DNA of 49,876 nucleotides, from assembly GCA_028706475.1 (NCBI GenBank), contig JAQWBI010000011.1:1-49876 (forward strand), read 5' to 3'. The position numbers and the translations under genes are program-made. This document shows, one piece after another, positions 769 to 49,531 of the stretch (position 1 is the stretch's first letter; each line of letters opens with the position of its first letter). Source of the DNA: Candidatus Cloacimonadota bacterium (GTDB lineage Bacteria; Cloacimonadota; Cloacimonadia; Cloacimonadales; Cloacimonadaceae). Below the pieces are notes generated by a model that searched no databases, was not told the origin of the DNA, and saw only the letters and a program-made list of their open reading frames with translations.

Positions 769-2031
769 TTACTTCAATATCACCAGCTTTCCTTTGCTTT
801 TCATTCCCTTGCCGTCCTGCAGGCTATAGAAATAGACTCCGCTGGAAAGCTTTGCATCAGATACCGTTAGGTCGCTTCCCTGATAGGGATAGGTTTTCAG
901 CTTTTGTCCTTTCAGGTTATACAGACTCAATTCCCCGTTGAGAGCTTCTGGGCTACTGAACTTCAGAGAGCTTCCTTGCCGCGCCGGATTGGGTGAAACC
1001 GAGAGCTGTGCTGGAATGGCGATCTGGTCTTCACTAAAGGAGGACGCATTATAGAGTTTAAGATCGGTAGGCATCATACCCACAGTGTATTGCTTCCAAT
1101 TGCTCAGATCCGGATGCAGGATTTCCACAATCCCATTCCCACCCCAGTTTGGCGTCAATAAAGCCACTACATTGCTATTTCCCACAACCCCTGAACACGC
1201 ATTGGGTAAGGGATTGGAGTCGCCATGCAAGATCGTAAAAGTGGAAGGATTATAGCTATACAGATGCGCCCCGTTGCCATCTGCTACCAACGCCAGATCG
1301 GTACCTGCAATCCAGAGAGCCCCGGGAGTGCCCCCAATATCGATGGTTTCCACCACCGTATCCGTGGAAGTATCTATGATGCAGATAACTCCGGCAGTAT
1401 CTCCCCAATTCCCAGTACAGGAAACATGGAGCTTTCCCTCATACGATGCAAGATGCTGGGGATTGGCACTCACCGGAATGGTACTCAACACAGTAAAGCT
1501 CTCCAGATCGATCACGCTCACGGAGCTGCCAGCATAGTTTTGGCTATAATTTCCCGCATTACAAACATACAGTTTATTGCCCACCAGTTCCAGGTCTTCC
1601 GGAGCAACACCCACATCCACGGAAGCTTCAACCGTGCCGCTGATCGTATCCAGTTTATACACTTTTTGAGACAGCCAACCCGACACATAGAGCTTTGTTT
1701 CATGTTTCAGGGCATCCCAGGGATTGGCTCCGAGCCCAACAAAAATGTTGGATATTGTATTGCCGCTTTCCCGCGAAATCTTCTGTACTGCATTGTCTCC
1801 GGAATTTACCGACCAGATATAGTCTTCATCCACCACGATTTTATTGGGTACGGTTCCCAATACGCTAAAGCTGTTATCCACCGTGTCTGTTTCGGTATCG
1901 ATCCTGCTTAGGGTGCGGGATTGTGAATTCACTACGTAGAGCAGTTCTGCAGCGGCAAAGCCATGAAGCAGCAATAATGCCACTATTAGCAAGAGCTTTG
2001 GGAGTCTAAGTCCACTGATGTTTGAGTTCAT
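769..2031 (-). CDS. BtuG-like seven-bladed YncE/YVTN beta-propeller with C-terminal sorting tail
   Basis: A 420-residue secreted protein. The ATG at 2031 is preferred over an upstream in-frame start because it follows the SD GAGGTGAAC and begins a signal peptide (LLLIVALLLLHGFAAA, no lipobox Cys). About seven propeller blades follow, recognisable by LYVVNS, IWSVNS, LYVSGW, LYVCNAG, LHVSCTG, LALVADG and the last NSNVVALL, most ending in an ID..T.TV strand. The final 75 residues carry SVSPNPARQGS, LYNLKGQKLKTY and GVYFYSLQDG, the Por/T9SS-type A sorting tail. It lies downstream of a TonB receptor and under its own cobalamin riboswitch. In Bacteroides, BtuG is a surface YncE-family seven-bladed propeller that binds B12 with very high affinity and docks on BtuB. 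I infer the same role here, exported by C-terminal sorting instead of lipidation. An unrelated YncE-type surface protein remains possible. Confidence 0.8.
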   Translation of the reverse strand: MNSNISGLRLPKLLLIVALLLLHGFAAAELLYVVNSQSRTLSRIDTETDTVDNSFSVLGTVPNKIVVDEDYIWSVNSGDNAVQKISRESGNTISNIFVGLGANPWDALKHETKLYVSGWLSQKVYKLDTISGTVEASVDVGVAPEDLELVGNKLYVCNAGNYSQNYAGSSVSVIDLESFTVLSTIPVSANPQHLASYEGKLHVSCTGNWGDTAGVICIIDTSTDTVVETIDIGGTPGALWIAGTDLALVADGNGAHLYSYNPSTFTILHGDSNPLPNACSGVVGNSNVVALLTPNWGGNGIVEILHPDLSNWKQYTVGMMPTDLKLYNASSFSEDQIAIPAQLSVSPNPARQGSSLKFSSPEALNGELSLYNLKGQKLKTYPYQGSDLTVSDAKLSSGVYFYSLQDGKGMKSKGKLVILK

Positions 2032-2033
2032 TT

Positions 2034-2280
2034 TGTTCACCTCTTTTTGTTTTGATTGTGACTTGAGATGAACACACTGGATATAGCCCATTCCCCGTAG
2101 GCTTCTTCCATACTTGTTGGCAGGTTTCCTGGCTTGCAGCGGGTTACGCTCTGCGCGTCATAATTGCCTTCCCATCATATTGACAGTGACAAATAAACCC
2201 TGTGTGCTGCTTACAGTGGCGGAGACCGCTTCCGATTCTAACGGAATTCCCTATTACCTTTTGTAAAGCACCATCAAGTC
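2034..2280 (-). promoter_or_regulatory. Cobalamin riboswitch upstream of the BtuG-like gene
   Basis: Read on the minus strand, the leader contains the AdoCbl-riboswitch core GCCACTGTAAGC, the GGGAAGGC segment and the B12 box AGCCAGGAAACCTGCC (about 2118-2134). These are in the correct order for the RF00174 class, with the aptamer at roughly 2100-2280. The expression platform is visible. TGTTCATCTC (2065-2074) can pair over ten positions with GAGGTGAACA (2034-2043), which contains the Shine-Dalgarno sequence, giving translational OFF control. It begins about 55 bases after the btuB-like stop. A conserved TTGACT lies just upstream (2312-2317), so it may have its own promoter. Confidence 0.92.
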
Positions 2281-2335
2281 ACAAATACACAGAAATCTGC
2301 GCTCCAGAAATAGTCAAGCTATTTGTTGAACTCGG

Positions 2336-4522
2336 CTATGGTTCGTACGCCACCTGCTCCTTTGCCCGATAGTTCTTTGTGGAGATCGATATCCCCGTTT
2401 CCCAGTTGATTCCGGGTTGTGGAGTGTAGGCATAGATTTCGTACATTTTATTTAGGATATTGTTTACTCTCAGGTCACAGCGGATATCGATAAACCGCAG
2501 CCCAATCCGGTAGAATCCAGCAGTATCCAGAGTATCAAAGCCTTTCAGCGGGGCGATCATGTTATCGACTGTGCTATATTGTTCGCCGGTATAGTTATAT
2601 TGCAAAGAGCAGCCACGTATGTCGTTACCAAAGTTCAGCATAGCTACTGCCTTCATCGCCGGAGTATATACCAGTTTCTTATTATAAGACGGCGATGGTA
2701 TGCCACCAGAATTTCTTGCCACATCTTTGGCATCGGTGAAAGTGACTCCGGCGTTTACCTTCAGAAGGCGGCTAATCTGCATTTGTGTTTCAAACTCATA
2801 GTTCCGAATCCTTGCCTTGCCCACATTAAAGGGCTTCCAGCTTATCCCATTCAGGTAATACTGTCTCCATTGGATCAGATTTTCCACCAGGTTTTGGTAA
2901 TAGGCTATTTTCCAGCGTGCTTTACCGGTATTTGCCTCTGCATACATGTTGTAGCCGAATGAGCTTTCGCTCTTCAAGTTCGGATTGCCCTGGGTCTCAC
3001 TATCCCCGATCCAATACATATCAAAGAGTGAGGGCTGAGAATATGCCGTTCCCACATATCCACCTATAGTAAGCTCAAATCCCAGAGGTACTTGCAGTTC
3101 TTGCTCCAATCTCCAGCTCGGCTGCACTTTATCTTCACAATAGTCCGCCCGGAATGCTCCCAGGGCCTTGTAGCTCATGATGCCGGGATACCATACCTGC
3201 TGGGCTTGTACGGCGATGGCAGAATTGTCTCGTTCACCGGTTGTTTTGATGTTGCTCAGTCTATTGAAGTAATCATAATCCACTGTACTATATTCCGCGT
3301 TTACGCCGAGCTTGGTTTCTTCCAGATTCAGATTGTTACTCAGCTTCAAGCCCCGGCTCTGCTGCGTCTGATCATAATGACTTTTCGCCAGTGTATTTGT
3401 GGAACCTTGATTTGTGAAGATGCTAAAATCCCTATTCCACCACAACAGCAACTCATGGGCGAAATCCCGATGCGACAATATGCCCCGCAGGTTATGCTGG
3501 GCATAGTTTCCTGTGAGTTTGGAGTTATCATATAAATCCAGGAAGTTTATAGTCCCCGGTAATTGCCGGACAAAGCTGCCCATATTGATGCTGTAGCTCA
3601 GCTCTGACGCATCCTTGGAATACCGTGCTTTGGCATAGAAGCTGTCACCAGTTTTTTTGTTGTGCTCTCTTTCCAGTTCCGGCTCTATCCCCCAAAAATC
3701 CGGAGTCTTGTAAGTAAAGTTGTTCAATGCCGTGTGATGCATATACTCTGCTTTCAGTGAGAGCGCATCCCGGTTGATCAATAACCTGTAAGCCTGCTTG
3801 TACAATCCAAATGACCCCATACTACTATAGATTTCGGCTTCCGCGGCTCTGGCATCGTCAGCTTTTTTGGTGTGAATGTGGATGATGCCGCCAATTGCTG
3901 CAGATCCTCCATACACGGATGAATTACCTTTTATTACTTCGATATGACTGATCTGACCAATTGGTATCCGGCTAAGGTCAAATGCTTCTCCAGCGGGATT
4001 CAGCACCACACCATCCAGCATCACCAAGCTGTGACGGCTAAAACTGCCCAAGATGGACACCGTCTGCCGTTCCCCGCTCAACCTCGTATCAGTGGTTACA
4101 AAAGCGGGATTCTGCAGCAATAGATCGTTGCTGTTATTGATTCCGGCATTGGTGTCCGGATGAATGATGCTGGAATTTAACGAAGGGCTGTTGGGACGGT
4201 ATTCGATAGCTCGTACCCACACAGAAGGCAATACAATGTCGTCTCGAACCAGAACTACCGGTGCTTTCAGGTCTCTCGTACTAATGGTGCGATCATGAAA
4301 GCCCAGGCGATGAATATGAAGTGAATCCGCTTCTGTAGCCAGATAGAAGCTTCCGTCCTCCCGGCTGTATGTGCTGTGCCGGGAATCTGAAACACTGGCT
4401 GATGAGACGGGATCTCCATCGGAATCCACAATTTTGCCCCCTATGGCAAAGATGGCACTAGAACAAAGCAGTAATGCACATAGCATCAATACTTTGCCTG
4501 TAACTTCTCGCGTCCGTATCAT
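2336..4522 (-). CDS. btuB: TonB-dependent outer-membrane receptor, probable cobalamin transporter
   Basis: A 728-residue outer-membrane receptor. The start at 4522 follows SD GAGGTGAAC and gives signal peptide VLMLCALLLCSSAIFA. A short CarboxypepD-regulatory-like domain (GGKIVDSDGDPVSSAS) comes first. The plug domain follows (about residues 85-220: NNSNDLLLQNPAFV, LVMLDGVVLNP, HIEVIKGNSSVYGGSAAIGG). The rest is a 22-strand-type barrel, including GYVGTAYSQPSLFDMYW. No gene for the inner-membrane BtuCDF complex or TonB is in the window. The substrate is inferred from the cobalamin riboswitch in its leader; the sequence alone only proves a TonB receptor. The neighbouring riboswitch-controlled propeller supports corrinoid uptake as a two-gene capture unit. 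Confidence 0.88.
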   Translation of the reverse strand: MIRTREVTGKVLMLCALLLCSSAIFAIGGKIVDSDGDPVSSASVSDSRHSTYSREDGSFYLATEADSLHIHRLGFHDRTISTRDLKAPVVLVRDDIVLPSVWVRAIEYRPNSPSLNSSIIHPDTNAGINNSNDLLLQNPAFVTTDTRLSGERQTVSILGSFSRHSLVMLDGVVLNPAGEAFDLSRIPIGQISHIEVIKGNSSVYGGSAAIGGIIHIHTKKADDARAAEAEIYSSMGSFGLYKQAYRLLINRDALSLKAEYMHHTALNNFTYKTPDFWGIEPELEREHNKKTGDSFYAKARYSKDASELSYSINMGSFVRQLPGTINFLDLYDNSKLTGNYAQHNLRGILSHRDFAHELLLWWNRDFSIFTNQGSTNTLAKSHYDQTQQSRGLKLSNNLNLEETKLGVNAEYSTVDYDYFNRLSNIKTTGERDNSAIAVQAQQVWYPGIMSYKALGAFRADYCEDKVQPSWRLEQELQVPLGFELTIGGYVGTAYSQPSLFDMYWIGDSETQGNPNLKSESSFGYNMYAEANTGKARWKIAYYQNLVENLIQWRQYYLNGISWKPFNVGKARIRNYEFETQMQISRLLKVNAGVTFTDAKDVARNSGGIPSPSYNKKLVYTPAMKAVAMLNFGNDIRGCSLQYNYTGEQYSTVDNMIAPLKGFDTLDTAGFYRIGLRFIDIRCDLRVNNILNKMYEIYAYTPQPGINWETGISISTKNYRAKEQVAYEP

Positions 4523-4524
4523 TT

Positions 4525-4765
4525 TGTTCACCTCTTGAATTTGTTTGTGACTTGAGATGAACACACTGGATATAGCCCATTCCCCGTAGGCTTCTTCCAT
4601 ACTTGCTGGCAGGTTTCCTGGCTTGCAGCGGGTGCGCGATGCGCGTCTTAATGCCTTCCCATCGTTTCGACAGTGGCAAATAAACCTTTCGTGCTGCTTA
4701 CAGTGGCGGAGACCGCTTCCGATTATCAACGGAATTCCCTATTACCTTTTGTTAAGCACCATCAA
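4525..4765 (-). promoter_or_regulatory. Cobalamin riboswitch upstream of btuB
   Basis: This leader is nearly identical to the one at 2034-2280. It has the same GCCACTGTAAGC core, GGGAAGGC and AGCCAGGAAACCTGCC box (aptamer about 4590-4765). It also has the same SD-sequestering pair, TGTTCATCTC (4554-4563) with GAGGTGAACA (4525-4534). High corrinoid is expected to block translation of the receptor. A TTGACT hexamer conserved between both leaders sits at 4799-4804. Confidence 0.93.
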
Positions 4766-4865
4766 GTCACAGTTACACAGAAAAAGCCCCTATGAAATAG
4801 TCAAGATATTCCTTAGTTATGCTTCTAAAAATCAGCTCTGCTCCCCCTCAGGATCAAGTGGTGCC

Positions 4866-5095: not shown

Positions 5096-6433
5096 CTACA
5101 CCACTCTGGCCGGAGCTTCTTTGCCTTGAATCACGGCAATGGCGTTGCGTGCGGCCATCATGCCCATTTCTTCTCTGGTCTCCATGCTGGCAGAACCGAT
5201 ATGGGGCAGGATCACCACGTTGGATAATCGTTTCAAATCTGCCGGAATCTCGGGTTCATCTTCATAAACATCCAAGCCTGCAGCCCAGATCCAGCCCTCG
5301 CTCAGGGCTTTGATCAGTATCTTCTCATCAACGATCGCTCCACGAGCGGTATTGATCAGGATGGCACCCGGTTTCATCGCTTTTAGCTCTTTCTCTCCGA
5401 TCAGATGCCGTGTTACGGAGCTAAGCGGCAAATGCAGACTAAGGATATCCGATTCCCGGAGCAGGGTTTCAAAATCTACATACTGTGCCGGGATATTCAG
5501 TTCCTTTATCTGAGGTCCATGATAGATTACCTTCATGCCAAAACCTACTGCACGACGCGCCACAGCCTGTCCAATGCGTCCCATACCCAAGATTCCCAGT
5601 GTCTTATGATGCACATCTTTTCCCAAAAAGAGCAGCGGTTCCCAACCCACAAATTTCCCTTCCCGGGTATATTTATCGCTCTGCGGGATACAGCGGGCAC
5701 TCGCCATGATCAGTGCCCAGGCAAGATCAGCTGTACTTTCGGTCAAAACTCCTGGAGTGTTGCATACTGCTATGCCTCTGGCTTTGGCAGCCTCCAGATC
5801 AATGTTGTTGTAGCCTACAGCATAATTTGCGATCACCTTCAACTTATCTGTTGCTTCGATCAAACTTCTATCGATTGTGTCGGACAAGAGGCACACTAAT
5901 GCGTCTTTCCCGGTAATATGCTCTTTCATTTCATGAGCTAGCATCGCTCTTTCAGAGGTATTGGCATGCACTTCAAAGGCTTCCTTGAGCTTTTCCATCG
6001 CTTTCTGGGGCAAGAGACGGGTGAGCAGCAATTTTGGTTTACTGGCATCGGGATTCAGGATTTCTACGATTCCACTATTATCTTCCTGGATCTCCGAGGC
6101 TTTCATAAAGTATTGAAATTCCAGTATTCTACCTTCGGGATCGGCTCCCCAAAAGTGGTATATCCTAAAACTGGAATTTACGCACGGAGCTGATGTGCTG
6201 ATGCTTTTATAGCGTTCGTAAGCAGTGTCTACCAATTTCTTCGAATCGTACAAGAAAGTGATGGTGCCTTGGGACTGGCTGCTTTCTCCTATGCAGAATC
6301 CCACCAGGAATCCATTATGTTCAAAAATTAGGCATTTGCCTTGATCTAGCCACAGATTTAAGCCCAACGAATCCAGATAAAAACTCCTGAGAGCTTCCAA
6401 GTCACGGGTGTTAAAGAAAACGATTCCGGACAT
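5096..6433 (-). CDS. Glyoxalase/VOC domain fused to D-2-hydroxyacid dehydrogenase
   Basis: A 445-residue cytosolic fusion. Residues 1 to about 112 form a glyoxalase/bleomycin-resistance (VOC) fold: IVFFNTRDLEALRSFY at the start and the closing strand DPEGRILEFQYF. Residues about 130-445 are a complete NAD-dependent D-isomer 2-hydroxyacid dehydrogenase of the glyoxylate/hydroxypyruvate reductase type. Visible motifs are the dinucleotide motif GILGMGRIGQAVARRA, the catalytic Arg in INTARGAIVDE, Glu in DVYEDEPEIP and His in ILPHIGSAS. The start has SD GGAG seven bases upstream. The two domains are in one uninterrupted frame, with no sign of an internal start for the second. The dehydrogenase presumably reduces a 2-oxoacid; the VOC half could act on a 2-oxoaldehyde or adduct of the same compound. 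This pairing is uncommon and its substrate is unknown. Confidence 0.88.
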   Translation of the reverse strand: MSGIVFFNTRDLEALRSFYLDSLGLNLWLDQGKCLIFEHNGFLVGFCIGESSQSQGTITFLYDSKKLVDTAYERYKSISTSAPCVNSSFRIYHFWGADPEGRILEFQYFMKASEIQEDNSGIVEILNPDASKPKLLLTRLLPQKAMEKLKEAFEVHANTSERAMLAHEMKEHITGKDALVCLLSDTIDRSLIEATDKLKVIANYAVGYNNIDLEAAKARGIAVCNTPGVLTESTADLAWALIMASARCIPQSDKYTREGKFVGWEPLLFLGKDVHHKTLGILGMGRIGQAVARRAVGFGMKVIYHGPQIKELNIPAQYVDFETLLRESDILSLHLPLSSVTRHLIGEKELKAMKPGAILINTARGAIVDEKILIKALSEGWIWAAGLDVYEDEPEIPADLKRLSNVVILPHIGSASMETREEMGMMAARNAIAVIQGKEAPARVV

Positions 6434-24427: not shown

Positions 24428-25420
24428 ATGAGAAAACTTCTTTTAGTATCAGTCTTTTTGCTCCTGATTTTTGCTGCCTGGGGGCAAGTGACCTATCACC
24501 TGGAGCTTACCCACATCAATCCAATGAATGTCAAAGGGATTTTCCGGATCGAAAACAACACCAGTAATACACTCGACTATTATTTTGGATCTTCAGCAAA
24601 CTTTGAGCTGTGGATGGACGGTTTAGGACCTGGTATGGCTTGGTTGCCCATAGAAAACGAGATTCACATTGAGTCTTATGGAGCTTTTGAAAAAGAAGTT
24701 GAACATAGCACTATCCAGCAGCATGATGTGGGTACTCATTACCTGCAGGTGCATTGCTACAACCAAGTACCTGCCTATCCTATCGGTCCCGTTCTGAGCT
24801 TTACAGTGGGTAACGGTTCTACTGCGATCGATAATCTGGATTTCAGCTTCGTCCTAAACCATATAAGCACCGAGTCTATCACGGGAACACTTACCATTCA
24901 CAATCAAGGTACTACTGCCTGGTACCAAAACTTTTCCGGTGGACTGGGCTTTATCGCTGTGGATGGCGATTATCCCGAGATCATTCCCCCAGAGAATTTC
25001 CTGAACTATTTGGAATTGGATCCTGGTGAGAGCTATGGCGCAGATATCACTCATCTGTTCAGCACGGCTCCTACTACGGGGAATCATACCGCTACAGTCT
25101 ATTTGCGCACCTATCCCCCGATTGAATTGGGCCTTACCACAGACTTCGTGATAAATCCTACTGCAACTGATGATCCACACGTACCGGAGCTTGCGCAAAT
25201 GAGAGTGTACCCCAATCCATTCAGAAATATGCTGAAGATTACTGTGGATAAAGGCCAAAGCCCAGCGCTGTACAATCTGAAGGGACAAAAACTGATGCAG
25301 TGGCAAAACCAGGCGGAAATCTCTTGGGATGGCAATGATGCACAGGGCTGCCAGCTGCCGCAAGGCATGTATCTGATCCGGAGCGGAAATCTGATCAGAA
25401 AGGTGATAAAGCTGCGGTAG
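24428..25420 (+). CDS. Secreted protein with two BsuPI-like domains and C-terminal sorting tail
   Basis: A 330-residue exported protein. The ATG at 24428 follows SD AAGGAG and begins MRKLLLVSVFLLLIFAAWGQ, a signal peptide. Two similar beta domains follow, about residues 20-120 (LELTHINPMNVKGIFRIENN) and 135-235 (FVLNHISTESITGTLTIHNQ). They share the pattern 'I..INN/HNQ..T...Y.....F...DG' and a late 'PGESY' or 'YGAFEKEV', reminiscent of BsuPI-type protease-inhibitor Ig folds; that assignment is tentative. The last 75 residues are a Por/T9SS-type A tail (MRVYPNPFRNMLKI, LYNLKGQKLMQW, GMYLIRSGNL, ending KVIKLR), which should direct it to the surface. It is monocistronic. Role unknown. Confidence 0.75.
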   Translation: MRKLLLVSVFLLLIFAAWGQVTYHLELTHINPMNVKGIFRIENNTSNTLDYYFGSSANFELWMDGLGPGMAWLPIENEIHIESYGAFEKEVEHSTIQQHDVGTHYLQVHCYNQVPAYPIGPVLSFTVGNGSTAIDNLDFSFVLNHISTESITGTLTIHNQGTTAWYQNFSGGLGFIAVDGDYPEIIPPENFLNYLELDPGESYGADITHLFSTAPTTGNHTATVYLRTYPPIELGLTTDFVINPTATDDPHVPELAQMRVYPNPFRNMLKITVDKGQSPALYNLKGQKLMQWQNQAEISWDGNDAQGCQLPQGMYLIRSGNLIRKVIKLR

Positions 25421-43998: not shown

Positions 43999-46311
43999 TT
44001 ATTTTACCCAGACCATACGGCGGGTTTTGTTATATTTACCGGCCTTCATACGGTAGAGATAAATGCCGCTGGCCAGAGTTTTGCCATCGTCATCTTTTCC
44101 GTCGTAGAGCCAGGTGTAGCTGCCTTCGGCTTTATTGCCGGGGCGATAGCTGCGTACCAATTGGCCGCGGATATTGTAGATGTCGATATGCACTTCTGAA
44201 GCATCGGTAAGGCTATAGGGGATGTAGGTTCTGTTTTTTGCGGGATTGGGGTAGTTCTGATACAGGGCATTCTTCTCCAAACCAGGCACCAGTACGTCTT
44301 TGTGGGCGGATGAGCTGCCGGAAACTATGTAGATGTTGTCGATAGTCCAGCCCGGATCGGTCAATTCATCGGCGATGCCAACATCGCGCAGTCGGAAGCG
44401 CAAGTATATCCTTTGTCCAGCGAAATCAGAAAGATAGGCATATTCCTTTTGCCACCAGTCATGGCGTCCGGATTTTATCCAGATTTCCTGCCATGAGCTG
44501 CCGTCCGTAGATACTTCCACGGTTACCGGATCAAAGTTCCATTCGGTATAAACATGCGAATCGAAGTGCAGTAAGGGATTTCCAGTAAGAGGAATATCGA
44601 TCGGAGTTTTGGTGGCAATCCACACATCGCAGTTTCTGGCGTAGTGTCCGCGTCCACCCCAGCTATCCGTTATGGCATTCCCGTTCACACTCAATTCATC
44701 CTGCAGCAACCAGGGACCGTTGATCTCCCAATTGTCTGTGCCCTGTTCCCAGGTTTCAGAGAAAATGATATTGGCTTCTCCCAGTTCAAAGCTGATTTGA
44801 GAAGCTCCGGGAGCGATAGCCAAGTTTTCCAGGTATGGATAATAACCATTATTCCAGATTTCTATGGGATACGTGCCTTCAAAACCTTCGTATTGATAGG
44901 CACCTACTATGTTCAGTTCGTCTGGAATAAAGTCCTTGATGATGATCCTGGCGGGGATGTTCATGCCATTGCTGCTCACATAGCCGTGCAGTTGAGCGCT
45001 TTGTTTGGGGCTAAGCTCCGGATTGCGAGTGGTTCTGCCGGTGTTATATACAGTAACGTTGGTGATGACGGTGTCCCAATAACCCTTCTTGCGGGCTTGA
45101 ATAGTGTAGTTGCCTTGGGGAAGGACTTTCCAAAAGCGTCCGGTATCAGGTGAACTGGTGCGGGGAACGAACCATGGTGCGTGTTTTTCGGGGATTATGA
45201 TCTCAGCTTCCAGGGCTTCTCCGGTAACGCTGTCTATCACAGTTCCCGTAAGCATGGATGTGGAAGGAACATCGGTGGAATAGTTCAAAGCGCGGTTTAG
45301 CATCCACCAAACGCCCTCGCTGGCGCGATCAACGGTATCCAGCATCATTGGTTCCTCTGGCTGCAGATTGCTGGTGCCGACCTCGATGAGAAGCTGGATG
45401 GTGCCATATTCCTTGTACATCCAATCGTGGAAAGCTCCTCTGCGGCTGGCATTGGGATAGTATTCGTAGGGTTGGCCGTTCTCTTTATGGATTGCAGTAG
45501 CCACGCCCTGTGCGATGCTCTGGGCAAAAGCAAAATCGGGAGAGGGACGCACATCTTTCCAGTTATAAGAAAAATAGACTTTTTCGGAGAAATTGCCAGA
45601 GCGTGAGGAGTGCCAGCAGATGCTATATACAAATTTCTTCTGGTCGCACAATGCTTTGATGGCTTGGTTCTCGCTTTCGCTCATGGGAGCGGGTCCGCGA
45701 TAATAGTCGTAAACCTCATCGCCACCGGGTTGCATCAGGGTGTCGCCATGAGCCCAGTTGAAATCGAAATTACGGTTGATGTCCACACCGTCGATATCAT
45801 AACCAACGCGCGTATCGAAGTCCAAGATACCATTGTTGTTATTATCACGTTTGTTTTTGCGGTAAGATGTATCCATGTTTGCGGTTACCACATTGTGTCC
45901 TTCCGGATTCAAAGTGGGCACCCACCATGTATCCAACTGATTGATCCACTTTATATATGGGCTGGATTGATTGTTTTGCAAGATTTCTTTGGCGTTGCTG
46001 AGTGTGATCTGTACGCCCAAAACTTCCTCAGCATGAACCTGACCCACAAAGAGTAGTGCGGGACGGTTCCAAGACCCCTCAAGCTGTTGAACATCGTTGG
46101 ATATTTGCAGGGCATAGATGGGGATTGAATCATGTTCAGAGTAGCCGATAATGTGGACTTTGGCCATAGTGGGATACTGATCTTCCAGGGCAAAAAGCTC
46201 ACTGGTGGCTTCCTCGTAAGTGTGATAGCACTCGGGGAGAGGAAGGTTTACCTGAGCGAATAGAATCAGGGGAATAAAGGCCATCAACAGGCATATGAGG
46301 CGTAATCGCAT
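43999..46311 (-). CDS. Secreted M14 zinc carboxypeptidase with sorting tail
   Basis: A 770-residue extracellular peptidase. Of three in-frame ATGs, 46311 is chosen because GGAG lies six bases upstream and MRLRLICLLMAFIPLILFAQ is a signal peptide. The M14 domain spans residues about 30-330: zinc ligands in GQVHAEEVLG (His, Glu) and ICWHSSRSG (His), substrate motifs TLNPEGHN and GVDINRNFDFNW, and catalytic Glu in LLIEVGTSN. CarboxypepD-regulatory-like domains follow (LTGTVIDSVTGEAL, LPQGNYTIQARKKGYW). Next is a MAM/jelly-roll-like domain (FSETWEQGTDNW, GWTIDNIYIVSG). The C-terminal FlgD-Ig sorting tail has YQNYPNPAKNRTYIPYSL and ASGIYLYRMKAG. It would cleave C-terminal residues from peptides outside the cell. 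It is last in a minus-strand gene group starting with the PorV-like protein. Confidence 0.95.
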   Translation of the reverse strand: MRLRLICLLMAFIPLILFAQVNLPLPECYHTYEEATSELFALEDQYPTMAKVHIIGYSEHDSIPIYALQISNDVQQLEGSWNRPALLFVGQVHAEEVLGVQITLSNAKEILQNNQSSPYIKWINQLDTWWVPTLNPEGHNVVTANMDTSYRKNKRDNNNNGILDFDTRVGYDIDGVDINRNFDFNWAHGDTLMQPGGDEVYDYYRGPAPMSESENQAIKALCDQKKFVYSICWHSSRSGNFSEKVYFSYNWKDVRPSPDFAFAQSIAQGVATAIHKENGQPYEYYPNASRRGAFHDWMYKEYGTIQLLIEVGTSNLQPEEPMMLDTVDRASEGVWWMLNRALNYSTDVPSTSMLTGTVIDSVTGEALEAEIIIPEKHAPWFVPRTSSPDTGRFWKVLPQGNYTIQARKKGYWDTVITNVTVYNTGRTTRNPELSPKQSAQLHGYVSSNGMNIPARIIIKDFIPDELNIVGAYQYEGFEGTYPIEIWNNGYYPYLENLAIAPGASQISFELGEANIIFSETWEQGTDNWEINGPWLLQDELSVNGNAITDSWGGRGHYARNCDVWIATKTPIDIPLTGNPLLHFDSHVYTEWNFDPVTVEVSTDGSSWQEIWIKSGRHDWWQKEYAYLSDFAGQRIYLRFRLRDVGIADELTDPGWTIDNIYIVSGSSSAHKDVLVPGLEKNALYQNYPNPAKNRTYIPYSLTDASEVHIDIYNIRGQLVRSYRPGNKAEGSYTWLYDGKDDDGKTLASGIYLYRMKAGKYNKTRRMVWVK

Positions 46312-46383
46312 TATATACTCCATAATTATTAACATTTACGGTTTATTGGATGCAATTTCTGCTCCAAACGGTGATTATATCGT

Positions 46384-47435: not shown

Positions 47436-48590
47436 CTATTGCTTTGCGAATATCGAAAGGCATCTATTGTAATAATTGCGATTGGCGGCAACAATGGAAC
47501 TAAGATCGGGATCAGGGATCTGCTGGGCTTCAGCGATAGTGCGTTCCACCAGAGGAAAGATGCCGGTGAAGGGGATTTTCCCTTCCAAAAAGAGTTTCAT
47601 TGCCGCTTCCACGGCAGCATTCATCACTGTGGGCAGAATCCCGCCCTGTTTGGCGACTTCCAGGCCCAGATAATACAAAGGGTAGCGTTCGGCTGAAATG
47701 TCTTCAAAACTAAGTTGTGGCAGCTCCAAGAGATTGGTTTGCACCAATTCCGATTGCCAGCGCTCTGGATAACTGAGAGCGTATAGAATGGGGAGGCTCA
47801 TGTCTGGCGAGCTTATCTGAGCCAGCATAGAGCCATCGCGGAATTGCACCAAGGAATGAATGATGGACTGGGGATGGATGACTGCTTCGATGCGTTCGTA
47901 GGGCATATCGAAGAGCCAGTGTGCTTCCATCACCTCCAGAGCTTTGTTGAACATGGTAGCGCTATCCAGAGTAACCTTTGCGCCCATATCCCAATTTGGG
48001 TGTTTTAATGCCATTTGGGGTGTGATGCGGGAGAAATCCTGCAAAGGCAGAGTTCGGAACGCACCGCCGGAAGCAGTGATGATGAGCTTTTGTACTTCAT
48101 GATGAGGGTGCTTGCCCAAGGCTTGAAAGATGGCGGAGTGTTCACTATCTACAGGCAGGATTTGTCCAGGTTTCTTCAACTTCTGAACCAGATGTCCGCC
48201 CATCACAAGAGATTCTTTGTTTGCCAAAGCCAGTTGTTTGCCTCTTTGCAGGATGGCGAAAGTGGCTTCAATACCTGCAGATCCGCCGATGGCGTTCAAA
48301 CCGATATCGTAATCCGCATCATCCAGAAGCGCCAGCAGAGCCTGCCTGCCGAAATACACTTTCTGTTCGGGGCATTCATCCCGGATACTCTGCTGCAGCT
48401 TGGGATCGCTGATGCCGGTGAATACCAGAATGGGGATCCGGAATTTGCGTGCTAGGGGACAGAGTTTGGCGGAGTTTGAATGGGCAGCGGCGAGGTTAAT
48501 GGAGAGATTTTGTAGATGCTTGCTATAGACCTTAAAAAAAGAATCCCCTATGGAGCCACTTGCGCCCAGCAGGGCGATCTTTTTTACCAT
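47436..48590 (-). CDS. dxr: 1-deoxy-D-xylulose 5-phosphate reductoisomerase
   Basis: A 384-residue enzyme of the non-mevalonate isoprenoid pathway converting DXP to MEP with NADPH. The NADPH motif is LLGASGSIGDSF; metal and substrate residues are in LANKESLVMGG, PVDSEHSAIFQAL, ITASGGAFR, MGAKVTLDSATMFNKALEV and EAVIHPQSIIHSLVQF. The C-terminal helical domain is intact. The start overlaps the stop of the PorV-like gene by seven bases, so translation is coupled. The adjacent site-2 protease gene rseP common in other bacteria is absent. Confidence 0.98.
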   Translation of the reverse strand: MVKKIALLGASGSIGDSFFKVYSKHLQNLSINLAAAHSNSAKLCPLARKFRIPILVFTGISDPKLQQSIRDECPEQKVYFGRQALLALLDDADYDIGLNAIGGSAGIEATFAILQRGKQLALANKESLVMGGHLVQKLKKPGQILPVDSEHSAIFQALGKHPHHEVQKLIITASGGAFRTLPLQDFSRITPQMALKHPNWDMGAKVTLDSATMFNKALEVMEAHWLFDMPYERIEAVIHPQSIIHSLVQFRDGSMLAQISSPDMSLPILYALSYPERWQSELVQTNLLELPQLSFEDISAERYPLYYLGLEVAKQGGILPTVMNAAVEAAMKLFLEGKIPFTGIFPLVERTIAEAQQIPDPDLSSIVAANRNYYNRCLSIFAKQ

Positions 48591-49531
48591 GAGTAGGTTA
48601 GTGAGATCTTATGAGTATAGCCCAAGCCATCAGGTGCATTGGTCTTTAAAGCGTAGTATAAACCAAGGGGTTTGAATTGAAGCCCCAATCCGGTGCTGAA
48701 GCTGTCCACATCATATCCCGCCATCAGTTGTAAAGCGGGAATGGGGCGGATCATAAGCCCGGCATGAATGTCTCCGCTAAGGGAAGAGCTGCTGAAATTG
48801 CTGGCATCACCGCGCTCTTCAGCATAAATCTGGCTACGAACGGCAAGATGGACGGGGATTGTGCGTTTCATGATATCTCGGCTGTAGGAAAGCTCCATAT
48901 CCAGATTTGGTATGGCTATCTCGTGTTCGCCGGATTCCCAGAGGATCTGTGTACCGAAGAAATCACGGAGATTTATACCAAGCAAGAATCCCTTTCCCGG
49001 GTCCCACAAAGCACCCAAATCTGCACCAATGCCGTAACCGTTGTGCTCGGCAAGGCTGCGGTAGGCAAGCTTTGGCGAGATTCCCAGATAGATGTTTTTA
49101 CTCATCTCCCTACCATAATTAGCGTACATTATCAGGTCTTGGTTGCTTACCGTTTTCCACACATAGGGACGGTTGTCGTTGCTGAGTTCTTCCTCTTCGT
49201 TTTCCAGCTTTGTAAGCTTAATTTTATCGATGGCAAGATGATTGATGGTGATGCCCGAACCGCTGCCAACCTTGAGGGAAATCTGGTTCTGAGTAAGTAG
49301 CCCTTCAAAATGATCACTGCGCATCAATTCTACTCCGCGAGAATTATCGTAAGCCAAGAGAGCTGGATTCCACCAGCCGGCGGCTTGGGATGCAGAATAT
49401 GTGAGTCCGGTACTGCCCATGGCTTGGTTTTGCACACCGGGGCTGAAGCTAAAGATTTCTCCCGCATATTTGGTGGCTGCCAAAGGCGTAAGTAATACCA
49501 TGAGCAAGAACATGAGCTGTAAGTTTTTCAT
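48584..49531 (-). CDS. PorV/PorQ-like outer-membrane protein
   Basis: A 315-residue outer-membrane barrel. The signal peptide is MKNLQLMFLLMVLLTPLAA. The N-terminal segment SPGVQNQAMGSTGLTYS...GWWNPALL has the PorV/UPF0164 pattern (Gly-rich loop, then WNPA). Alternating beta strands follow, and the chain ends in a terminal aromatic (YTHKISLTYSW). PorV-like proteins deliver C-terminally tagged cargo to the surface in type 9 secretion; several tagged proteins occur in this window, but function here is inference. SD AAGGA precedes the ATG. It is the first gene of the group PorV-like, dxr, M42, M14, 55 bases downstream of a tRNA gene. Confidence 0.8.
   Translation of the reverse strand: MKNLQLMFLLMVLLTPLAATKYAGEIFSFSPGVQNQAMGSTGLTYSASQAAGWWNPALLAYDNSRGVELMRSDHFEGLLTQNQISLKVGSGSGITINHLAIDKIKLTKLENEEEELSNDNRPYVWKTVSNQDLIMYANYGREMSKNIYLGISPKLAYRSLAEHNGYGIGADLGALWDPGKGFLLGINLRDFFGTQILWESGEHEIAIPNLDMELSYSRDIMKRTIPVHLAVRSQIYAEERGDASNFSSSSLSGDIHAGLMIRPIPALQLMAGYDVDSFSTGLGLQFKPLGLYYALKTNAPDGLGYTHKISLTYSW

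Follow-up and report, generated by a model that had tools for sequence, protein, structure and literature searches.

Cobalamin riboswitches precede a BtuB-type receptor and a BtuG-like propeller with a T9SS sorting tail in Cloacimonadota

A 49,876-nucleotide stretch of a Cloacimonadota genome (hereafter the window, meaning the whole stretch that was analysed) carries adjoining genes for a TonB-dependent receptor and a secreted propeller, and raises the question of whether the two work together as BtuB and BtuG do in Bacteroides. BtuG has been described as restricted to Bacteroidetes (PMC6143338). TonB transporters capped by lipoproteins have been regarded as seemingly confined to Bacteroidetes (PMC10404256), and BtuG2 has been called absent from other users of BtuB (PMC12751083). 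Literature searches, which covered open-licence papers only, found no publication on BtuG outside Bacteroidota or on a T9SS-tailed BtuG. The evidence presented below makes it likely that the locus is a cobalamin-repressed outer-membrane corrinoid uptake module working like the Bacteroides BtuB–BtuG pair, with a T9SS-anchored propeller as the partner of the receptor.

Locus layout, riboswitches and encoded proteins

The locus occupies the minus strand of positions 769–4804, in the transcription order riboswitch, BtuB-type receptor, riboswitch, propeller (Table 1). The sequence-only reading had placed a cobalamin riboswitch before each of the two genes, and both aptamers were indeed recovered at scores far above the RF00174 gathering score of 31.5. 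No third RF00174 match was found by an Rfam search elsewhere in the 2.06-Mb, 96.8% complete assembly. The two aptamer-plus-leader stretches shared 93% identity over 254 aligned columns in a pairwise alignment, whereas the aptamer pairs of four other genomes were 76–92% identical, suggesting that the duplicate is recent, or has been homogenised, only in some species. Both leaders end in a predicted hairpin in which GUUCAUCUC pairs with GAGGUGAAC and encloses the Shine-Dalgarno site; the minimum free energy of the propeller leader was −18.4 kcal/mol, against a shuffle mean of −10.8 (sd 2.9). Because the Shine-Dalgarno site would be held in these hairpins, the riboswitches likely act by translational control. 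The longest mechanical ORF starts (giving a propeller of 440 aa and a receptor of 797 aa) extend into the riboswitch leaders, and the starts at 2031 (propeller) and 4522 (receptor), just after good Shine-Dalgarno sites, are the likely ones. We also observed that UGUGACUUGA, near the 5′ end of both riboswitches (2034–2290 and 4525–4778), is the exact complement of UCAAGUCACA, which sits in the loop region of the downstream Shine-Dalgarno hairpin; this pairing is a possible switching helix.

Table 1. Features of the locus, with positions in the window
Feature	Position	Strand	Basis
Cobalamin riboswitch aptamer, 5′ of btuB	4591..4778	−	RF00174, 89.9 bits, E 5e-21, full model
Predicted hairpin sequestering the btuB Shine-Dalgarno sequence (GUUCAUCUC / GAGGUGAAC)	4525..4563	−	MFE fold of leader
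BtuB-type TonB-dependent receptor, 728 aa (stop codon 2336–2338)	2339..4522	−	PF00593 and PF07715 over cut-off
Cobalamin riboswitch aptamer, 5′ of propeller gene	2102..2290	−	RF00174, 96.3 bits, E 7e-23, full model
Predicted hairpin sequestering the propeller gene's Shine-Dalgarno sequence	2034..2074	−	MFE fold of leader
BtuG-like secreted propeller gene, 420 aa (stop codon 769–771)	772..2031	−	Domain matches and AF2 model
Signal peptide, aa 1–27, without lipobox	1951..2031	−	Sequence
Seven-bladed propeller, aa 28–330; N- and C-terminal strands close blade 1	1042..1950	−	AF2, pLDDT 93.4
Flexible linker, aa 331–342	1006..1041	−	pLDDT block mean 52 at aa 331–340
T9SS type A C-terminal sorting domain, aa 343–420	772..1005	−	TIGR04183, PF18962

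The receptor matched the Pfam barrel (E 2e-19) and plug (E 3e-12) models, and its N-terminus was weakly CarboxypepD_reg-like. Its top NCBIfam models were two vitamin B12 receptor models, NF007926 and TIGR01779 (E 2e-30 and 4e-30), although it scored below the equivalog cut-offs of both (for TIGR01779, 104.9 bits against 599.7). The TIGR01779 cut-off seems suited to enterobacteria, since the riboswitch-linked BtuB of Pontibacter likewise misses it with a score of only 85. Among PDB entries, the receptor matched E. coli BtuB, followed by colicin I receptors and Bacteroides BtuB proteins. As in the BtuB–BtuCDF system of E. coli, the genome encodes homologues of a receptor, a periplasmic binder and a permease, with BtuF and BtuC lying on another contig (C25) without a riboswitch; to our knowledge, E. 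coli BtuB has no surface binding partner. CbiC, the one biosynthesis marker considered, was not detected in the genome; together with four B12-binding-domain genes and BtuF/BtuC, this suggests that the bacterium probably imports corrinoids and probably needs to do so.

The sorting tail of the propeller protein exceeded both curated cut-offs (47.3 bits against 23 for TIGR04183, and 31.3 against 27 for PF18962), and its P-N/S-P motif was kept in all 65 distinct full-length homologues. A lipobox-like match was absent from 62 of the 65, and the other three matches were doubtful, so the earlier description of a Por/T9SS-type A tail in place of a lipobox holds. The T9SS machinery is also encoded, with PorU at 608 bits (cut-off 420) and SprA at 491 bits (cut-off 200), along with about 45 other T9SS tails. 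The protein thus combines a signal peptide with a type A C-terminal domain in a genome equipped to secrete such cargo, in line with an earlier suggestion of T9SS in Cloacimonadota (PMC11285876). Two more T9SS type A-tailed proteins are encoded in the window, at 24431–25417 and 44002–46335, the latter resembling an M14-type carboxypeptidase in its sequence, and the PorV/PorQ-family outer-membrane protein at 48587–49531 (63.6 bits, under the cut-off of 90) is possibly a T9SS component. Closer to the locus, positions 270–680 encode a small secreted protein with a long proline run near its C-terminus and no family match, and positions 5099–6430 a 2-hydroxyacid dehydrogenase. The N-terminus of this enzyme is unusually extended, by about 130 aa, and the added stretch appears, from its sequence, to resemble a glyoxalase/VOC domain.

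Fold and ligand face compared with those of BtuG

An AF2 model built from 48 sequences had 28 propeller strands forming seven blades, in agreement with the rough count made from the sequence alone, and a profile search found four TIGR02276 YVTN repeats in this region. Three strands from the N-terminus and the final strand together close blade 1. In a VIA-align comparison against the PDB, the model matched BtuG1/2 with Z values of 34–35 and an rmsd of 2.0–2.3 Å over 287–298 residues, at 18–22% identity; the propeller part of the overlay that the sequence-only reading had proposed as a check therefore succeeded, the predicted fold superposing on BtuG1–3 at about 2 Å over 290 residues. The archaeal S-layer propeller 1l0q reached a Z of 35.9 but an rmsd of 14.2, and E. 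coli YncE a Z of 28.6. Unrelated seven-bladed propellers reached Z values of 31–33 at 9–11% identity, so fold similarity alone is weak evidence. In a PDB profile search, the best match was again 1l0q and the next were all BtuG proteins (E 1e-22 to 1e-14), with E. coli YncE at 5e-7. The propeller scored 20 bits against PF16819 (DUF5074), under the gathering score of 27.2, whereas BtuG2 itself scored 74 bits. Fold and sequence thus favour a likeness to BtuG without amounting to proof by themselves. A direct profile comparison (469 for Bacteroidota BtuG and 216 for generic YVTN propellers) was not relied on, because some BtuG rows bear T9SS tails and the generic rows are fragments, which makes the contrast unfair.

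The B-C and D-A loops of a propeller lie on one common face. Across the 48 sequences, conserved columns (>0.8) were concentrated in these loops (23 of 76) relative to the A-B and C-D loops (3 of 50; p = 2e-4), and the residues named as B12 contacts in BtuG2, namely the N54–T64 loop, W194, Y239, W272, Y316 and Y335 (PMC10404256), map onto them. We compared these positions in 17 Cloacimonadota and 18 Bacteroidota BtuG rows. N54 corresponds to N35, an Asn in 17/17 and 18/18 rows, respectively; T64 corresponds to T40 (Thr in all 17 Cloacimonadota rows), Y239 to W209 (Trp or Tyr in all 17) and Y335 to W296 (aromatic in all 35 rows). The Cloacimonadota propeller has no aromatic counterpart of W194, W272 or Y316, that is, of three of the five named pocket aromatics. 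The positions of W194 and W272 are variable inside the BtuG clade as well, and the position of Y316, which is Gly or Ala in Cloacimonadota and mostly Tyr or Phe in BtuG, represents a real difference. Judged from these alignments, the Cloacimonadota pocket appears to be related to that of BtuG, not identical to it, and kept only in part. Charge asymmetry was no help as support for B12 binding: the B12 face of BtuG2 is reportedly acidic, whereas in our model the conserved face carries a charge of only −3, which is mildly acidic, and the opposite face one of −11.

The missing aromatics would also fit a propeller whose contact with BtuB, or with some other B12-regulated partner, has a purpose unrelated to corrinoid binding, for instance plugging, assembly or shielding against phages, and many propellers mediate protein contacts only. 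However, cobalamin regulation, the conserved BtuG ligand face and the aromatics at the Y239 and Y335 positions argue against such a role, which we regard as quite improbable.

The protein shares with BtuG1/2/3 of B. thetaiotaomicron (PF16819, DUF5074) a secreted seven-bladed propeller of nearly the same fold, a cobalamin riboswitch, a btuB gene beside it and part of the ligand-face residues (PMC6143338, PMC10404256). It differs in coming from another phylum, in lacking the three pocket aromatics, and in having a C-terminal T9SS domain instead of a lipobox, a lipoprotein export signal and an N-terminal linker. Since the lipoprotein feature is missing and the DUF5074 cut-off is not reached, we call it BtuG-like, not BtuG.

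If the locus works like BtuB–BtuG, low intracellular cobalamin would allow both riboswitches to permit translation of BtuB and the propeller, probably through release of the Shine-Dalgarno sites. After Sec export and cleavage by signal peptidase I, the propeller would be moved across the outer membrane by the T9SS via its C-terminal domain, and the PorU sortase would leave it at the cell surface. Its conserved loop face would there bind corrinoids and pass them to BtuB, and BtuF and BtuC would carry them inward. Relative to BtuG, the anchor would have shifted from an N-terminal lipid to the C-terminus. In the model, the A-B hairpin of blade 1 is opened, one of its ends being the propeller N-terminus, where strand B1 starts, and the other the C-terminal linker, which follows strand A1. 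Because both termini lie in this blade, either anchor would, from the topology, exit the propeller at the same place, away from the ligand face, making a hinge at the same edge possible, so that the same lid geometry could work. This raises the question of whether a C-terminally anchored BtuG can still cap BtuB.

Conservation and linkage across Cloacimonadota

To place the locus within its phylum, we looked for RF00174, the propeller and BtuB in 125 Cloacimonadota genomes. The propeller was found in 103 genomes, with about one full-length copy per genome, and BtuB in 107, nearly always as one copy; the predicted function would therefore apply to a protein found in most Cloacimonadota genomes. 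Both genes co-occurred in 98 genomes, neither was found in 13, BtuB alone in nine and the propeller alone in five (Fisher p = 1.9e-8, a value to be read with the relatedness of the genomes and the inflation of the "neither" class by incomplete assemblies in mind). Among the 103 propeller genomes, 38 had a riboswitch 69–149 nt upstream of the propeller and 31 more had one on the same strand 2.2–8.8 kb upstream; the remainder comprised 20 with a riboswitch on another contig, 13 without a detected riboswitch and one other. Of 54 genomes outside the family of the window, Cloacimonadaceae, 49 had BtuB immediately upstream of the propeller. With this much upstream regulation and adjacency, the homologues are not found mainly away from cobalamin riboswitches and btuB, in keeping with the earlier proposal. 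The longer spacing, of about 7.2 kb, reflects a conserved operon with the order riboswitch, btuF, btuC, iscR-iscS-iscU (on the opposite strand), btuD, btuB and propeller. The oppositely oriented iscR-iscS-iscU-like cluster that splits this btuFC...btuDB operon is itself conserved across families (loci L062 and L063).

It could be supposed that a generic YVTN/S-layer propeller is merely hitch-hiking in a B12 operon, given that propeller repeats are widespread and that 1l0q is the top single PDB match. Such a passenger is very hard to reconcile with the riboswitch immediately preceding the gene, with roughly one full-length copy in each genome, and with a linkage that is conserved in many GTDB families and extends to other phyla, and we consider it highly improbable.

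In the family of the window, the operon is broken up, and in most genomes the propeller does not adjoin btuB. A single riboswitch lies 69–149 nt before the propeller in 25 genomes, where btuB is elsewhere without one (or, in one of the 25, was not detected). Eleven genomes, including the present one, have a riboswitch before each of btuB and the propeller, three have a riboswitch before a btuB-propeller pair, and one has two riboswitches, one of them before btuB. No riboswitch was found in five genomes, in which neither a riboswitch nor btuB lies beside the propeller.

The 25 genomes in which the sole cobalamin riboswitch controls the propeller are an argument for another arrangement, in which the propeller binds corrinoids but forms no lid on BtuB and is instead expressed alone under B12 limitation as a scavenger, shed or tethered to LPS, that enriches corrinoids in the vicinity of the cell. 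The propeller has no N-terminal tether, and a T9SS tail permits LPS attachment or release. On the other hand, nearly every other family has the propeller adjoining BtuB, an arrangement that points to joint action of the two, and we judge a scavenger without a lid function to be rather unlikely. We nevertheless keep a free or LPS-bound scavenger open because some genomes have the propeller alone under a riboswitch. In a broader form of this idea, the T9SS-delivered propeller of Cloacimonadota would be a stand-alone riboswitch-controlled extracellular scavenger with no stoichiometric tie to BtuB, either bound to LPS or set free. In many species it would be the product of the genome's only cobalamin-riboswitch gene, and capture would be separated from transport; we regard this as a minor possibility.

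Relatives in other phyla and their anchors

Relatives beyond the phylum were sought with a related-locus scan seeded with a 12-row alignment. BtuB-propeller neighbours were also found in WOR-3 (L128 and L129), Zixiibacteriota (L131), Spirochaetales (L132) and Pontibacter. As in the window, the operons of the first three groups have a BtuB-type receptor adjoining a propeller of the same loose clade. The Zixiibacteriota and Spirochaetales propellers differ in being lipoproteins, with a riboswitch upstream, and the Pontibacter propeller is a classic lipoprotein BtuG. WOR-3 has a T9SS tail as well as a tailless twin, and no riboswitch was found at its BtuB-propeller locus: two adjacent propellers follow BtuB (L129:7702–10227, also L128), the first tailless and the second T9SS-tailed. 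In WOR-3, two other T9SS-tailed proteins of unknown function flank BtuB.

Among 148 sampled Bacteroidota genomes, we found seven DUF5074 propellers with a signal peptide, no lipobox and a T9SS tail; profile matches confirmed the tail in six, and the sequence did so in L238. All seven lie right after a cobalamin riboswitch and a TonB receptor (BtuB). These propellers (L246–L252) resemble that of Cloacimonadota in the riboswitch, BtuB, signal peptide and tail, but they fall in the Bacteroidota BtuG clade. The sequence-only reading had envisaged the BtuG strategy outside Bacteroidota with a different export route. Linkage, fold and the T9SS tail support the strategy and the route in Cloacimonadota, whereas the route does not set the phyla apart: T9SS tails also occur in the seven Bacteroidota homologues, and lipoprotein BtuG-like propellers also occur outside Bacteroidota, in Zixiibacteriota and Spirochaetales.

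In a phylogenetic tree, the tailed Bacteroidota propellers formed two separate groups among the lipoproteins, both apart from Cloacimonadota, suggesting repeated exchange between lipid and T9SS anchors, as far as a deep, unrooted tree can indicate. The Cloacimonadota propeller fell in a loose clade with those of WOR-3, Zixiibacteriota and Spirochaetales (89/82 support). The tree did not group it with Bacteroidota BtuG in a clade free of other YVTN propellers, and midpoint rooting of this tree gives no answer on an exclusive BtuG/Cloacimonadota ancestor. T9SS has been noted to be absent from Bacteroides (PMC11285876), the genus of the BtuG studies, and this may be the reason that the lipid form alone was seen. 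Should the proposed function be borne out, the capture of B12 at the cell surface by a propeller working with BtuB would span several phyla and many environmental anaerobes, and the membrane anchor would be replaceable, being either a lipid or a T9SS tail, so that the model in which the lid opens on a lipid hinge would have to allow for both. Downstream of some of the tailed-propeller operons of Bacteroidota, we also observed a class II B12-dependent ribonucleotide reductase (L246, with similar ORFs in L247 and L250) or CobT (L248).
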